64,000 nucleotides of DNA from Plasmopara viticola (Eukaryota; Oomycota; Peronosporomycetes; Peronosporales; Peronosporaceae), in NCBI GenBank assembly GCA_001695595.3, contig MBPM02000109.1, forward strand, positions 121,882-185,881. Reading direction: 5' to 3'. Numbering within the stretch: position 1 is the first letter of the stretch; each line of letters opens with the position of its first letter. Positions 35,678 through 42,330 of the stretch are shown one piece after another. The notes under the pieces were generated by a model. That model was given only the letters and a program-made list of their open reading frames with translations, made no database searches and was not told the origin of the DNA. The position numbers were made by a program, and so were the translations under genes.

Positions 35678-35682
35678 CTTTC
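35678..35682. repeat. Target site duplication of Copia-2 (left)
   Basis: CTTTC, repeated exactly at 40185-40189 on the other side of the element. Confidence 0.85.
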
Positions 35683-35862
35683 TATAACAATGTGATTGTC
35701 GCAGTGCAAAATGGAAAGTAAATTCATAGGAATAAAGCAAACTATAGGCTCTTACTCACTTGTAGCCACGTGTTCTTCTGTCTCGATATTCTAGAATGTG
35801 ACTATTTCTCTTATATGTCAAGTTGGCACATACTGTGGGACACCCAATTAGAGGCCGTTACA
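35683..35862 (-). repeat. 3' LTR of Copia-2
   Basis: 180 bp. On the minus strand it starts TGTAACGGCCTCTAATTGGG and ends ...CACATTGTTATA (TG..TA ends). By eye it is identical to 40005-40184. The pol stop codon lies 13 to 15 bases inside it. Confidence 0.95.
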
Positions 35863-38244
35863 CTCCCCCTCAACTTGACAGTCCACAAGTCCGCATGCGT
35901 CACGAAGCTCCACAAAGCGCGGCGTCGGAATGGCCTTCGTTAACATATCCGCTAGCTGAGACTCCGATGGTACGTACTCCACCTTGATGGTGCCCTTCTC
36001 GACGTAGTCACGGACGAAGTGAGCTCGGAGGTCGATGTGCTTGGCGCGTGGGGTGTATCCGTGGTTAGTTGCCATACTAATCGCCGACTGGTTGTCCATG
36101 TAGATCGTCGACGCACTCGACACGTTTACACCCATCTCTGTGAGGAGGAAACGCAGCCACAGTACTTCTTGAGCGGTAAGTGCGAGAGCCATGTACTCGG
36201 CTTCAGCAGTTGATAATGCGACGGTCGCTTGACGCTTGCTCTTGTAGATGACCGGACCGTCAGCCATCTTCACCATCACACCAGACGTCGAGCGTCGCGT
36301 CTCCTTATCACCACCCCAGTTCGCGTCGCAGTATGTCACGATATTCTTGCCCTTTGCCGTGTAGTGGATGCCGATCGAAAGAGTGGCCTTGAGGTAGCGA
36401 AGTACACGTAGCGCAGCATTCCAATGCATCTCACGCGGCGTATCGAGGTACTGGGAGAGTATCGACAGCACGTAGCCAATGTCGGGACGTGTGGCATTGG
36501 CAACGTACAGCATTGATCCGATTAGTTCGCGGTACTTATTTTTGTCTGTGCATACACCGTGCTTGTCGGATGGGCTGAGATCTTGACCAATTACCATTGG
36601 GTTGCGGACACCATGAGCAGATACTTGACCAAAACGCTCGAGCAACTTGGTTATAAACTGAGATTGCTTCACCACCATTTCACCACGTTTCCGATCGTGA
36701 AGTACTTCCATCCCGAGAACGAAACGAGCATCACCGAGTGATTTGACCGTGAAGTGCGACGCGAGACCAGTACACACGGATCGCGCTTGTTCCTCTGTTT
36801 TGCAGCCAACAAGTAGATCGTCTACGTAGAGCACCACAAAAACCGCGGCCGCTGGGTCACTGTCATCTCGTCGAACGAAGAGACAAGGATCAGCTCGACA
36901 CTGTTTGAAACCGAGACGCTTGAACACGTCGCGGATGGTACGGTGCCACACAGCTGCAGCTTGCTTGAGTCCATAGAGGCTGCGGCGGAGTCTGCAAACC
37001 AATTCCGGCGCTACATTCACTCCTTCAGGGGGATTCATAAACACTGTTTCGTCAAGCTTTCCATTTAGAAATGCGGTCTCAATGTCAAACTGGCGAATCA
37101 TGAGGCGTCGAGAGCAGCACAATGCGAGAAAGACCCGGATCGTGTTCATGCTTGCCACTGGTGAGTATGTGTGGGTATAGTCTATGCCGCGAGTCTGGAG
37201 GAAACCTCGAGCGACTAGACGTGCCTTGTATCGCTTAACCGCTCCATTCTCGTCGTACTTCTTCGCGAATACCCATTTGCATCCGATCACCTTGTTTCCT
37301 TGAGGTCGTCGCACCATGTCCCACGTGTGGCTCCGCACATGCGACCGAATCTCAGCACGTATAGCTTCCTTCCATTGTGGAGCGTCAGGGGCCGCCATTG
37401 CTTCAGCGTATGATGTAGGCAGCTCAGACACCGCCAACGCAATTTCGTACTCATCCAGGCGTGGTCGCTTGCTTTCTGGTTCTGGCTCATCGTCATTTTC
37501 AGCGCCACCAAGATGCAAAGGCATACATTCATCAGTCAGTAGACGCGGTTGTTCGTACGTGATCGACCGAGGTCGAATGGAACTACCACTGAACACTATG
37601 CGATTCTCTGATGCATCGACGCCAACACCAACACCAACACCATGAGGGATAATTACTGACGGTGTGCTCGGACCACTTGCGGTAGCACGGACGAGATCAC
37701 GGCTCGGGTTGAGTTGCTGGACCATGATGGCGGGGTCATTAATCGATCGACTTGGATGTTGTGGATGCGGAGCGATATCGCAATCAGGACGCTGGGCGAG
37801 CTGCGTCTGTGGATATTCGGTAGCAGAAGCAGGAATAATGCGCTGGACAACTTGCACCTGGCTGTTACTCCCCCTGTCAAGAACATCAGTAGGAACGGGT
37901 GAGGCTTGAGCATCGGTAGGGGACACTTCTTCCATTTCAACGTCGGCGGCATCGTCGACACCCGCAGTTCCACCATTGGTATTCTCATTCACTGGTCGCG
38001 GTGGCGGGATATATATCACGCCATCGTGATCATCGATGCTAACCACCCATCGAGAGCAACTTGAGTCATCACTGACGGCATGGAACGTGTCTGGTGGTCG
38101 CTCATTCAGATGCACCGATCGCGAAATCACGATGCGCTCGTCGTCGTAGTCCCACACACGGTACGCTTTCGAATTATCAGCGTATCCAAGGAAGAGGCAA
38201 CGGTGAGCTCGAGGAACAAGTTTGCCTACTTTTGGTTTGCCAAC
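35848..38244 (-). CDS. pol: Copia-2 pol fragment: integrase tail, reverse transcriptase, RNase H
   Basis: Open for about 800 codons; the in-frame Met at 38292 lies within antisense RhoGAP sequence and is not a native start. The copia part begins V-H-V-G-K-P-K-V-G-K at about 38244, the segment just after the integrase core, then R-C-L-F-L-G-Y-A. An acidic Pro-rich linker follows. RT begins near 37400, with K-W-V-F-A-K-K, A-F-L-N-G and the catalytic Y-V-D-D-L-L near 36825. RNase H has Y-C-D-A-N-W-G-G near 36310, S-T-S-G and S-T-A-E-A-E-Y. It ends in the LTR. RT and RNase H look intact, but no Gag, protease or integrase core is present, and translation would need a start inside the antisense cargo. 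Confidence 0.9.
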   Translation of the reverse strand, partial: VGKPKVGKLVPRAHRCLFLGYADNSKAYRVWDYDDERIVISRSVHLNERPPDTFHAVSDDSSCSRWVVSIDDHDGVIYIPPPRPVNENTNGGTAGVDDAADVEMEEVSPTDAQASPVPTDVLDRGSNSQVQVVQRIIPASATEYPQTQLAQRPDCDIAPHPQHPSRSINDPAIMVQQLNPSRDLVRATASGPSTPSVIIPHGVGVGVGVDASENRIVFSGSSIRPRSITYEQPRLLTDECMPLHLGGAENDDEPEPESKRPRLDEYEIALAVSELPTSYAEAMAAPDAPQWKEAIRAEIRSHVRSHTWDMVRRPQGNKVIGCKWVFAKKYDENGAVKRYKARLVARGFLQTRGIDYTHTYSPVASMNTIRVFLALCCSRRLMIRQFDIETAFLNGKLDETVFMNPPEGVNVAPELVCRLRRSLYGLKQAAAVWHRTIRDVFKRLGFKQCRADPCLFVRRDDSDPAAAVFVVLYVDDLLVGCKTEEQARSVCTGLASHFTVKSLGDARFVLGMEVLHDRKRGEMVVKQSQFITKLLERFGQVSAHGVRNPMVIGQDLSPSDKHGVCTDKNKYRELIGSMLYVANATRPDIGYVLSILSQYLDTPREMHWNAALRVLRYLKATLSIGIHYTAKGKNIVTYCDANWGGDKETRRSTSGVMVKMADGPVIYKSKRQATVALSTAEAEYMALALTAQEVLWLRFLLTEMGVNVSSASTIYMDNQSAISMATNHGYTPRAKHIDLRAHFVRDYVEKGTIKVEYVPSESQLADMLTKAIPTPRFVELRDACGLVDCQVEGECNGL
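35863..35871 (-). promoter_or_regulatory. Polypurine tract of Copia-2
   Basis: GAGGGGGAG on the minus strand directly before the 3' LTR, the expected plus-strand primer site for reverse transcription. Confidence 0.75.
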
Positions 38245-40002
38245 ATGGACAGCCCGTCTCGGACACGGAATCCTCCCGTGTCTGATGGACAACCAAGAGA
38301 CTCGGTCCTTTCACCGGGGTTAAGCCACCCAAAGACGTCGATCTCGCCACCCGTTTCTCCTGTCGCTCCGTCATCCCGTTCGTCGATGGACGTCGACGAT
38401 CCGCTTGCAAGCATTGACACGATGGCGAGTTTTCGCGTAAACCGCCTCTTGTCGTCCTTCTCTCCGTCCCCTTCAGCTTCGACGCTCATGGCTGCCTTGC
38501 ACGCCCCCAATGGTCACGTTGCCGCAGATGTACCCCCTCGCAGTCCCCAGCAACGGCAAAGCTTCAATTGGCGGTCCGTTGAGGCGGCACTACCGGCCAA
38601 CAGTGTCTCCTATCGCTCGAAATCTCCGCGGGAAGGGGGCAAGATCTCGGTCGGGGACCCGTTTCGAGCTTCGCACGACGTTTGTGTAAAGTACAACTCT
38701 GTGCAAGCTCAATACGAGGGCGCACCCTTGTCGAGTGAGTGGACGGCCCTCCATCAGCAATTTGGGATCGCGCTAGTCCACATGCGCTGTCGAAGCACGG
38801 CGTCCCACCCGGTCGATCACGTCCCGGCACTGGTTCGAATGTTGCGTCGCGAACTCCTTCGTCTCAATGGACTTTGCGCCACGTTTGTTTACCGCGTCTC
38901 GCCGGTGCAGGAGGACGTGCAGCGGGCAAAAGCAGCCATTGATGGCGGCTCCTTTGTCCCCTCGCACGTCGCGGACCCGCACGTTTACGCCAGTCTTTTG
39001 AAACTGTGGCTACGGGAGCTCCCCGTGCGTCTATTCGATCCTTTGACCATAAACGACTTGACTGCCGTCACTCGGTTAACAGGGTCGGGAAGCCGGGACG
39101 ATGACGAAGATTTGCAGCTCGTCACCCGTGCAAATGTCCACCTTGTCGAAGCTCAACTCCACCGTACGCTGCAGAAACTGGGGACGCGAGAGGCTGCGGT
39201 CTTGCAGTGGCTTTTGGACCACTTGCTCGAAGTGAATGCCCATCGCAGTGTGAATCAAATGACGACGCCGGCGCTCGCGACGGTCGTGGCTCCCAATCTC
39301 TATTCATGCTCGAGCACGGAGCAACTGACGGTTGAACAGGCAGGAACAATGATGACACAGGTGGTGCTCTTTGTCCGTGTCTTGCTCGCGTGGCGTCGCG
39401 GGAGTCCACTGACGATGCTGGACGAGCACGAGGCCAAGGACCTTGCCCCGCCGTTGGCAGCCACAACGTCAGTGGACAGCCACGCGATGCAACAGCGAGT
39501 ACGGGCGTCCATCACGAACCACGCGAGCAATGGCGACGCGGAAGTAGAGGATGAACACGCCTTGGTGTCGTTGGAATCTGCGCTTTGCCACCACGTTGAT
39601 CGACTTTGGTGCCAAGTCGAGCAGAGCGACGTCACTCGTGGCGAGTTGAAACATCGAGAGCAAGAGTTGCGGCGCCTCTTTTGCGCGTTTCAAGCGTCGA
39701 CACTGGCGCTCATTGCTCGGGATTCTAAACGAAAAGACGAACGGAAGTGGGCAAGGGCGCTGCTTGATCTACAACAGACTGGTCAAGAGGTAAAGAGGAC
39801 GCGTTTAGAGTCTTTCAAGAGGATGAGCGAGTGGGTGGACGCTGCCTTGTCGTTTGAAGCGTTTTGTCGACTTGTCGATCGAGAGCACTCGGTGTTTGAG
39901 AAAGTGAAGCGACTGCAGACTCGATTTGGGTACTCTACGAGTTGCGGAAACCAGGAGTTTGCTGGAAGTGCTGCGTCTAGTCGAAGTGTTTTGGGCTCAT
40001 AA
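38245..40002 (+). CDS. CRIB-RhoGAP (Rho/Rac GTPase-activating protein), captured inside Copia-2
   Basis: 585 residues, uninterrupted, on the strand opposite to the element. Residues 1-130 are Ser/Pro-rich and disordered. A CRIB-like motif follows at 134-150 (I-S-V-G-D-P-F-R-A-S-H-D-V-C-V); the second His of the consensus is Cys. The RhoGAP domain is about 185-385, with Y-R-V-S-P at 216-220 (R217 as candidate arginine finger), L-L-K-L-W-L-R-E-L-P at 251-260, and N-Q-M-T-T-P-A-L-A-T-V-V-A-P-N-L at 337-352. A helical, charged tail follows. Such proteins switch off Rac/Rho GTPases and so shape actin and polarity. The longer frame from 38080 is rejected because its first 55 codons are antisense pol. 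The last codons (G-S-stop) are made by the primer binding site, so the native C-terminus may be cut. It is clearly more GC-rich than the surroundings. No promoter is seen. Confidence 0.9.
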   Translation: MDSPSRTRNPPVSDGQPRDSVLSPGLSHPKTSISPPVSPVAPSSRSSMDVDDPLASIDTMASFRVNRLLSSFSPSPSASTLMAALHAPNGHVAADVPPRSPQQRQSFNWRSVEAALPANSVSYRSKSPREGGKISVGDPFRASHDVCVKYNSVQAQYEGAPLSSEWTALHQQFGIALVHMRCRSTASHPVDHVPALVRMLRRELLRLNGLCATFVYRVSPVQEDVQRAKAAIDGGSFVPSHVADPHVYASLLKLWLRELPVRLFDPLTINDLTAVTRLTGSGSRDDDEDLQLVTRANVHLVEAQLHRTLQKLGTREAAVLQWLLDHLLEVNAHRSVNQMTTPALATVVAPNLYSCSSTEQLTVEQAGTMMTQVVLFVRVLLAWRRGSPLTMLDEHEAKDLAPPLAATTSVDSHAMQQRVRASITNHASNGDAEVEDEHALVSLESALCHHVDRLWCQVEQSDVTRGELKHREQELRRLFCAFQASTLALIARDSKRKDERKWARALLDLQQTGQEVKRTRLESFKRMSEWVDAALSFEAFCRLVDREHSVFEKVKRLQTRFGYSTSCGNQEFAGSAASSRSVLGS

Positions 40003-40004
40003 CC
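39993..40004 (-). other. Copia-2 primer binding site (half-tRNA type)
   Basis: GGTTATGAGCCC on the minus strand directly after the 5' LTR. It is complementary to the anticodon part of an initiator tRNA-Met (GGGCTCATAACC, with anticodon CAT), as in Drosophila copia, rather than to the tRNA 3' end. On the plus strand it supplies the stop codon of the RhoGAP frame. Confidence 0.75.
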
Positions 40005-40184
40005 TATAACAATGTGATTGTCGCAGTGCAAAATGGAAAGTAAATTCATAGGAATAAAGCAAACTATAGGCTCTTACTCACTTGTAGCCACGTGTTCTTC
40101 TGTCTCGATATTCTAGAATGTGACTATTTCTCTTATATGTCAAGTTGGCACATACTGTGGGACACCCAATTAGAGGCCGTTACA
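40005..40184 (-). repeat. 5' LTR of Copia-2
   Basis: 180 bp, identical to 35683-35862. Transcription from here would run leftward, first through the antisense RhoGAP cargo and then pol. Confidence 0.95.
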
Positions 40185-41054
40185 CTTTCCATCTGGATAC
40201 AATTTGCCTAAAAAAGATTCTTGTCTCAGGCAAGTTTTCTTTGTCAATAGCGATAACATATTTGTCGACTTTATACTAGAGGCGATGCTGTGCGCTTTGC
40301 AACTAACACTTCTGTGATGTTAATGTTGAGCTTGAGGCCTCCGTTGATTGATAACCGACCCAATTGCTAATAAAGTCGTTTTTTCGTCGGTGGATTTTAT
40401 TCCGAGCTACATTGTCGCACGAAATCGACAGCTGAATCAAAACTTGCCATGGAGGAGGAGATTCGTCCATGAAAAACTAGAGTATATCCATAAGTGACCA
40501 ACGTGGAAAAATATATTTAGGTACGGTGCCAGGCTAACCAGCTAATTACCCACAATAATGGATTTTCCTTGCATTCTATACTCACCGCGATAGATATTGG
40601 CCATCCGCGCTGCGCTTGTGGGCACCGCTTCAGAACCCCCACGGTCCGCTTTGCTCGCGTCTCCACCATTGGATATTTTTAAAGTAATGAGCGGCTCATT
40701 GTTGAGCTCGGCGCTGGATTCGCCTCAATAGTATTGCGCGGCCTTGCTTTGCGAGATTCACATCAATTTACGGTGTTCACTTCCGTAGTTTGGTGCACAC
40801 AATCATCCAGCTTCTGTCTAGTAGACAGAAGCTGGCTGCAAATGCACCTTCCTTAAATATGTGGAGTCTCATACACAGATATATGCGAGAATACCTAGAG
40901 CCAGGCGACATCAATAAAAGTCGATGTGAAAGGACATATGTTCAGTTGCACGTGGCGCGCGCGAGAATAAGAGAAAATTTTATTTGCACCGCACTTTTTG
41001 AACATGTGTTGGTGGACCACACCATATAAAAGCTTTTGTACATTCTCAGCTTTT
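40185..41054. other. Effector upstream intergenic DNA (inverted) with a hairpin
   Basis: 40185-40189 is the right Copia-2 target duplication. 40240-40460 is the repeated block with GTCGACTTTATACTAGAGGCGATGC and GGAGGAGGAG (compare 29130). 40600-40760 is the GCTGCGCTTGTGGGCACC / GAGCGGCTCATTGTTGAGC block. A perfect 14-bp inverted repeat (CCAGCTTCTGTCTA, one-base loop) lies at 40807-40835. A 79-codon frame over it is not recognised. Confidence 0.5.
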
Positions 41055-41623: not shown

Positions 41624-42330
41624 TTACGTTATCGCGCTGCCAAGGTATGCACGTGCTAGGCTCAGTCTGGCTAGTCCACGGCATAGAGTGGTGTCCGCAT
41701 ACGTCGAGTCTCGTTCGGCGGGCAGTGCATCCAGCACCGAGGTCGTATGGGTCTTCCATTTCTTTCGGTCTTGTGCAAGGGTACGTACCACTTCGAGGTC
41801 TTGTGCTGTCCGGAGTCGAAAGCCGGAGCCACGGGAAACAAGATTGTGGTCGAGTGTCGAGGGGAGCGTGGTGCGGGGACGTCCGCGCCATTTTGCTGCG
41901 GTGGAGAAGAAGTAGGCACGCATCTGGAGGTTAGCTGGAATGTCGGGATAGCGGCGAAGTACATGGCCAAACAGGCGCCAGCGAGCTTGTGTCAGTCGTA
42001 GTCTCAGCGGCCGCTCATCACAGAGGTCGTAGAGTCTTGCATTCGAAATATGTCGGGGGTAGCGATAGCCAAGAGCGTAGCGAAGCTGGCGGCGATGGAA
42101 ACTCTCGAGGCCGTGGAGCTCTGACTTGGTAAGAGCCCAGTTGTACAGCAAAATCGGTAGAACGTAGGTGTTGTACAATCGAATGCGTGTCTTGGGTGAG
42201 ATGAACGTGGGGCGGAGCCAGACGGACCAGAGGCGGTGGAGCGCGAGGGTGGCCAGGGACTTGCGTCGGGATAGATCTTTAATATCGCCGAGGAGTGTTC
42301 CGAGCTTCTTAGTGTGGTGCCAGGTTTCTT
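41624..42330 (-). pseudogene. LINE reverse transcriptase C-terminal region (copy G)
   Basis: Minus-strand frame with K-L-G-T-L-L-G-D-I, then T-R-I-R-L-Y-N-T-Y-V-L-P-I-L-L-Y-N-W-A-L-T, F-H-R-R-Q-L-R-Y-A-L-G-Y, and W-R-L-F-G-H-V-L-R-R-Y-P-D. This is the maturase-like tail found after the RT domain of many LINEs. The 184-codon frame from 42178 is open to 41624. The RT palm with its F-x-D-D box is absent. Confidence 0.85.

Follow-up and report, generated by a model that had tools for sequence, protein, structure and literature searches.

A Young Non-Autonomous Copia Element of Plasmopara viticola Carries an Internal Piece of a Host Kinase-RhoGAP Gene in Antisense Orientation

Introduction

Host mRNA can enter the cDNA of LTR retrotransposons by template switching. 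For such LTR-mediated retrocopies, studied by Tan and co-workers, a review (PMC5408686) describes microsimilarities at the switch points, captured sequence that is often only part of an mRNA, and a switch during first cDNA synthesis, before the second strand is made. Host gene pieces within an LTR element are also described for maize Bs1, which holds pieces of three genes (PMC13317346, PMC7264820). In Pxyfem of Plutella xylostella, part of an mRNA is reported to be fused in reverse complement to LTR-element sequence, ATTT being shared at one joint; the same account presents it as a multicopy antisense fusion with unidentifiable LTRs that yields silencing RNAs (PMC9674220). Plant LTR elements such as Grande, RIRE2, and Retand carry an open frame antisense to gag-pol, which PMC7264820 places between pol and the 3' LTR and characterizes as family-conserved and without similar genes outside the elements.

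Here, we describe an element of the oomycete Plasmopara viticola located in a stretch of 64,000 nucleotides (contig MBPM02000109.1, positions 121,882 to 185,881; hereafter the window, to which positions given without a contig refer). Like the retrocopies of PMC5408686, it carries host sequence flanked by the LTRs of a single insertion and shows microsimilarity at the switch points; unlike those described there, its orientation and joints point to a start of plus-strand synthesis at the primer site. As in Bs1, the cargo is host gene sequence, here a single piece, and as in Pxyfem a partial host sequence is joined in reverse complement to the element, but with LTRs, target-site duplication, and both joints intact. 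In contrast to the antisense frames of Grande, RIRE2, and Retand, the frame is single-copy, lies between primer site and pol, and has a known donor. Within the open-licence literature, searched by titles and the starts of abstracts, no paper was found on this element or on capture by plus-strand strong-stop DNA.

Results

The stretch from 35683 to 40184 is one Copia-type LTR element on the minus strand, as judged from its sequence and from comparison with its family (Table 1). The features named in an initial annotation of this DNA, namely identical 180-bp LTRs, CTTTC duplicated outside both of them, and a primer site and a polypurine tract inside them, were all recovered, and CTCCCCCTCAACTTGAC, the complement of the polypurine tract, adjoins the inner edge of the 3' LTR. 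The inner boundaries of the element agree with those of its family. The LTRs are undiverged and the insertion is very young, as had been proposed. Pfam-A called an integrase-end SH3 domain (SH3_retrovirus, covering profile positions 19-69 of 73) followed by RVT_2 on the minus strand, which is the Copia order, and no gag or rve domain in the two chimera frames scanned. The element is a non-autonomous Copia derivative from which its own gag and integrase are absent. Gag and the integrase core are replaced, where the initial annotation had named gag, protease, and integrase; the integrase end is kept, and a protease domain by that name was uncalled in L027, a full-length relative, as well. The annotation's description of the remainder as the RT/RNase H half of pol is borne out for the reverse transcriptase, whereas RNase H was uncalled by Pfam-A in both the chimera and L027 and is assumed from position.

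Table 1. Features of the chimeric element and its flanks (positions in the window)
Feature	Positions	Strand	Evidence
Target-site duplication CTTTC (left)	35678..35682	.	flank comparison
3' LTR, TGTAACGG...TTGTTATA on minus strand	35683..35862	-	180/180 vs other LTR
Polypurine tract adjoining 3' LTR	35863..35879	-	sequence; CTCCC boundary same in relatives
Pol 3' part, young (A) subfamily	35863..37463	-	2 changes vs L033, 4 vs L027
Switch interval, subfamily A / subfamily B pol	37464..37526	-	site counts, L027 vs L063
Pol middle part, subfamily B (integrase-end SH3 domain towards RT)	37527..38233	-	nearest copy C7:1282498-1283253, 97%
Pol junction block	38234..38250	.	native GGTTTGCCAACATGGAC, elements GGCTTGTCAACATGTAC; chimera has native letters at 3/3 differing sites
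Cargo 5' part	38234..38999	+	766 bases identical to native gene on C13
Cargo 3' part	39000..39992	+	holds all 27 substitutions vs native (dS 0.050, dN 0.020)
Open frame, 585 codons plus stop	38245..40002	+	RhoGAP at 38824-39312
Primer-binding site GGTTATGAGCCCAA (minus strand), also second junction	39991..40004	-	complementary to anticodon arm of initiator-like tRNA-Met
5' LTR	40005..40184	-	180/180 vs 3' LTR
Target-site duplication CTTTC (right)	40185..40189	.	flank comparison

A similar but unoccupied paralogous site was found on contig C59, which matches both flanks (84% on the left side and 88% on the right, counting aligned bases without gaps), holds no element, and has the target region once. 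Around the native gene from which the cargo derives, no LTR or pol match was detected in 9.9 kb. Together, these two findings indicate that the LTRs did not land separately beside a resident gene. Outside the element, the minus strand of the window at 41624-42178 has an open frame that by eye resembles the end of a non-LTR reverse transcriptase.

The cargo (38234-39992) is plus-strand host coding sequence, about 1.76 kb in length. The 585-codon CRIB-RhoGAP frame on the opposite strand, as initially annotated, runs from an ATG at 38245 to a TAA inside the primer site (40000-40002), and its RhoGAP identity is confirmed by Pfam-A (E 1e-22, plus strand, residues 193-355 with the count starting at 38248); the likeness to CRIB is visible to the eye only, the motif being uncalled by Pfam-A at E<=5 and by a PDB sequence search at E<=10. 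Protein searches with the cargo used 38248-39999, which is the frame minus its first Met only. The frame continues upstream to an ATG at 38080, giving 640 codons. An arginine of the cargo aligns with the finger loop of p50RhoGAP, at what we take to be the finger position. A protein search with the cargo returned four matches, none of them this cargo.

The donor is a host Ste20/MST-kinase plus RhoGAP gene on contig C13 (C13:956518-959820, L002:193-3495; 1100 codons, CDS 3303 bases), whose protein has a kinase domain at residues 34-290 and RhoGAP at 629-788 (Pfam-A). A native RhoGAP locus, the first thing the initial annotation had proposed to look for, thus exists elsewhere in the genome, and the captured stretch is there a continuous frame without introns. 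The cargo is an internal piece of this gene, codons 432-1018, with its ATG at native Met436. Since it comes without the N-terminal kinase and the last 82 residues, it does not have the full domain set that had been attributed to it. Its open frame had also been called unusual, yet at such an age an open frame would be expected. Processed pseudogenes made by LINEs have a poly(A) tail and no LTRs; the cargo does not have this form, as it ends 82 codons before the native stop and lies inside LTRs.

In the assembly (92,937,831 bases, 358 contigs), the cargo has two DNA matches, itself and C13:957824-959577, and a protein search with the cargo added one distant match (33%). Further copies of the chimera, which the initial annotation had left as a matter to check, were therefore not seen beyond the element itself; because haplotype redundancy had been removed from the assembly, which was also polished, single copy holds for the sequence kept only, and the L025/L026 pair described below demonstrates that some duplicates were left.

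Kinase and RhoGAP domains were both precomputed in 22 of 24 homologues of the native protein, and the two others, without kinase, are basidiomycete matches. Named homologues with both domains belong to Plasmopara halstedii, Phytophthora, Nothophytophthora, Globisporangium, and Lagenidium, the nearest being that of Plasmopara halstedii (59%). The native protein unites RhoGAP with a kinase and, as judged by eye, a CRIB-like motif, an arrangement found across oomycetes. To our knowledge, a kinase carrying its own Rho GAP is an unusual pairing. The RhoGAP-only protein P0025 of Phytophthora cactorum was considered as a second capture and rejected: its RhoGAP part is by eye all but identical to that of P0017, which has the kinase, so that P0025 is probably a partial gene model.

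Counted from 38248, cargo and native gene show no difference in 752 bases and then 27 in 994; so long a difference-free gap was obtained in 1 of 200,000 shuffles. In the 3' part, dS exceeds dN (Fisher p 0.02; both branches summed), in keeping with a past spent for the most part as a working allele. P0001 matches the native protein at 98% and is probably another allele of the kinase-RhoGAP gene; its 23 residue differences fall into two blocks with an identical middle, suggesting intragenic recombination among alleles. Within the cargo range, six residues (445 to 648) distinguish P0001 from the native protein, and at these the cargo agrees with the native protein; at 985, 986, 1005, and 1012 the cargo agrees with P0001 and the native protein differs. 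In the range 713 to 959, 11 cargo residues match neither protein, and three of them carry the letter of most relatives compared (10 of the 24 homologues, namely P0001 and nine others). At residue 713, L is present in 9/9 relatives as in the cargo, and native and P0001 differ; at 790, C is shared with 7/9, one relative having G as native and one a gap; at 887, D is shared with 8/9, and the nearest relative, P0002 of Plasmopara halstedii, has N as native. The cargo letters at 832, 860, 900, 915, 923, and 959 occur in 0/9 relatives, which means that changes arose in the cargo line as well.

Decay of an old pseudogene was rejected as the sole source of the 27 differences, given that dS exceeds dN and that the cargo has the majority letter at 713, 790, and 887. 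The cargo is not a copy of the reference allele, and its template was probably another allele: on these comparisons, it was probably a third, recombined one, or the cargo was part-converted by the native gene. The LTRs carry no change and the A part of pol about two, which implies that the cargo differences predate the last copying round. The same variants bear on whether an assembly artefact joined element and gene reads. The assembly paper (PMC6660063) does report high heterozygosity, ad hoc removal of inter-haplotype redundancy, and Pilon polishing, yet 27 cargo-specific variants without a frame break, a perfect target-site duplication, the primer site, and the unoccupied C59 site make such a misjoin scarcely credible.

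The LTR search of the assembly gave 41 matches from the best 40 of 172 candidates, and among these listed matches at least 14 pairs of neighbors lie less than 5 kb apart: ten with spacings of 4512-4519 bases, the chimera with 4322, two on C17 with 2681 and 2879, and one on C7 with 179 (side by side). In eight (L025-L032) of 16 fetched loci, both LTRs are complete, none of them differs from the chimera LTR, and the 5-bp flanks match (8/8); full-length relatives sharing the chimera's LTR, of the kind sought in the initial annotation, are present. L025 and L026 have one duplication in common and flanks identical at 200/200 positions on both sides and are thus one insertion held twice, so that the eight full-length copies represent at most seven insertions. 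This insertion in two contigs (C150:82400-87800 and C64:100-5500) is either a segmental duplicate or a leftover haplotype. A single 1449-codon frame is found in 5/8 of the full-length copies, and a two-piece search of L027 called Retrotran_gag_2, Pol_BBD, gag_pre-integrs, and rve, then SH3 and RVT_2. Elsewhere, among the matches listed, C17:919361-928571 has three family LTRs at spacings of 4514 and 4518 bases and looks like a tandem LTR-internal-LTR-internal-LTR array.

The pol of the chimera is a mosaic of two subfamilies, A and B, on which the initial annotation was silent, as it was on the divergence of the cargo 3' part from the reference allele. The segment next to the cargo has about 74 changes in 707 bases (about 10.5%) compared with the young relatives, and the element holding its nearest copy has LTRs that are 90% alike. 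Left of 37483, a comparison of L027 with L063 gives 103 A-like sites (a single gap in L063 accounts for 17) against 2 B-like sites; to the right of it, 68 sites are B-like and 10 A-like, placing the switch in the interval given in Table 1.

This mosaic structure also allows that a subfamily-B chimera is older and was recently co-packaged with subfamily-A RNA, the switch giving it young A ends. Consistent with this scenario, the B-type pol and the cargo 3' part are both about 3% from anything in the assembly, while the A part and the LTRs are nearly or wholly unchanged. However, no older copy is present in the assembly, identity of the first 752 cargo bases with the native gene would require conversion by that gene as an additional event, and the excess of dS over dN, although summed over both branches, suits a working allele better than decay. 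We therefore regard an older chimera as improbable, if still worth serious consideration.

At the second junction, the primer site reads TTGGGCTCATAACC on the plus strand. Copia elements prime from an internal, half-tRNA-type site against the initiator tRNA, and GGTTATGAGCCCAA is the complement of what is presumably the anticodon arm of initiator tRNA-Met. The core of the site, GGGCTCATAACC, occurs once in the window and in 0/100 shuffles, and a 12-base core is found 759 times in the genome versus 3 times for the reversed control; three listed core places were read, and 3/3 show GGTTATGAGCCCAAG on one strand, like other primer sites. At C20:525983-558414 lies a tandem array of 57 units, every one about 550 bp long and containing GGGCTCATAACCCAAAGGT, with an anticodon arm like that of initiator tRNA-Met. 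The one unit read has a 14-nt match to the primer site and was recognized as tRNA by Rfam (E 5e-9), and ARAGORN gave no tRNA call; by eye, the first half of its acceptor stem is odd. Among the matches listed, at least 37 primer-site words, 36 in the same orientation, are spread over 250 kb at C8:2994-255353, which is probably a Copia-rich tract.

At the pol joint, native gene and elements share 14/17 bases. Where they differ, the chimera has the native letter at 3/3 sites, and the other letter is present in 36/36 element places (fetched loci, some representing one element in two loci). Similarity of this degree was found for 16 of 14.2 million same-orientation 17-mer pairs, and for 35 in the other orientation; not being unique, it supports homology-guided joining without singling out the place. 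At the primer-site joint, the native gene reads TTTTGGCTCAT, the elements have the primer site itself, and the chimera reads GTTTTGGGCTCATAACC. The microsimilarity here is TTGG/CTCAT plus one extra G, and the chimera keeps the GGG of the primer site where the native gene has GG. GGCTCAT occurs once in the native CDS, and this site is the best match in its 3303 bases to a 12-base primer-site probe, by a small margin (score 7, next 6). The primer-site letters are a weak test because the site is rewritten from the tRNA in every round.

A polymerase moving from the primer site through the gene into pol would leave the letters of the departing strand in both blocks, as is seen, whereas the opposite direction, from pol into the gene, would leave element letters at the pol block. 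Copying of a sense mRNA during plus-strand synthesis would moreover yield the antisense orientation without further steps. The junction letters and the reverse orientation thus point to plus-strand strong-stop DNA annealed to the host mRNA, not to the minus strand. A minus-strand template switch onto an antisense host transcript would agree with the timing given in PMC5408686, but it predicts element letters in the pol block and requires such a transcript, and we consider it very unlikely. Short-homology break repair could instead have put the gene piece or loose cDNA into an element at the DNA level, followed by retrotransposition. Both joints do show short similarities, and no intron is at hand to prove an RNA step; on the other hand, one joint coincides precisely with the primer site, where plus-strand transfer takes place, and orientation and the letters at both joints would be left to chance, which renders this origin distinctly doubtful.

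Discussion

At its core, the initial annotation holds: a very young, non-autonomous Copia element has captured a host gene piece, full-length relatives of the element exist in the assembly, and the native locus stands elsewhere. We propose that the chimera originated by plus-strand capture in one round of reverse transcription within the particle of an active relative, and assign this reading a probability of slightly under 60%. Minus-strand synthesis would have copied subfamily-A RNA, switched to subfamily-B RNA within 37464-37526, and halted within the integrase end or close to it. The plus-strand strong-stop DNA, with the primer-site copy GGTTATGAGCCC(AA) at its 3' end, would then have missed its usual partner and annealed to GGCTCAT in the host Ste20-kinase/RhoGAP mRNA. 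Copying of about 1.76 kb towards the mRNA 5' end would have reversed the gene, after which the new strand would have re-entered pol via the 14/17 similarity, run to the 3' LTR, and given a product that integrated with a 5-bp duplication.

The anatomy of the element, its donor gene, the letters at its junctions, and its youth are observed; we infer the order of these steps, their completion in a single round, and the mRNA template. An RNA template is not proven by intron loss, the captured native stretch being one open frame. Two further observations weigh against the one-round model: the junction similarities are short and imperfect, and the assembly contains neither the precise allele nor the precise B-type pol donor, the nearest sequences being about 3% off in each case. 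These gaps would also fit an older chimera remobilized by recombination. The initial annotation had assumed that the chimera formed first and then moved. Such a sequence of events is possible but not needed, as a single round could account for both capture and integration, and the assembly has no second copy.

As a protein, the cargo probably does nothing, considering that it has no known promoter and that both LTRs are oriented away from the frame. A transcript from the 5' LTR would be expected to include a stretch of about 1.76 kb that is antisense to the host mRNA and matches it perfectly over 766 bases. By analogy with Pxyfem, for which an antisense fusion giving silencing RNAs is described (PMC9674220), silencing of the host gene by such RNA is possible in principle.

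Captures of host genes by LTR elements are already known, and worn copies can lose their LTRs or joints, as reported for Pxyfem (PMC9674220). Owing to its youth, the chimera described here still reveals its donor gene, parent family, insertion site, and both joints, and its joint letters are informative about the strand in synthesis. It is tempting to speculate, although we hold the odds to be somewhat against it, that there is a distinct route of antisense capture, in which strong-stop DNA ending in the primer-site copy pairs with words in host mRNAs that resemble the primer site. If this route is general, capture would be aimed at words such as GGCTCAT, the cargo would lie antisense right after the primer site, and one step would lead to LTR-driven antisense RNA against a host gene, here the Ste20-kinase/RhoGAP gene with its 766-nt perfect match. 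A general plus-strand route would provide an explanation of antisense captures and a simple prediction of their start points.
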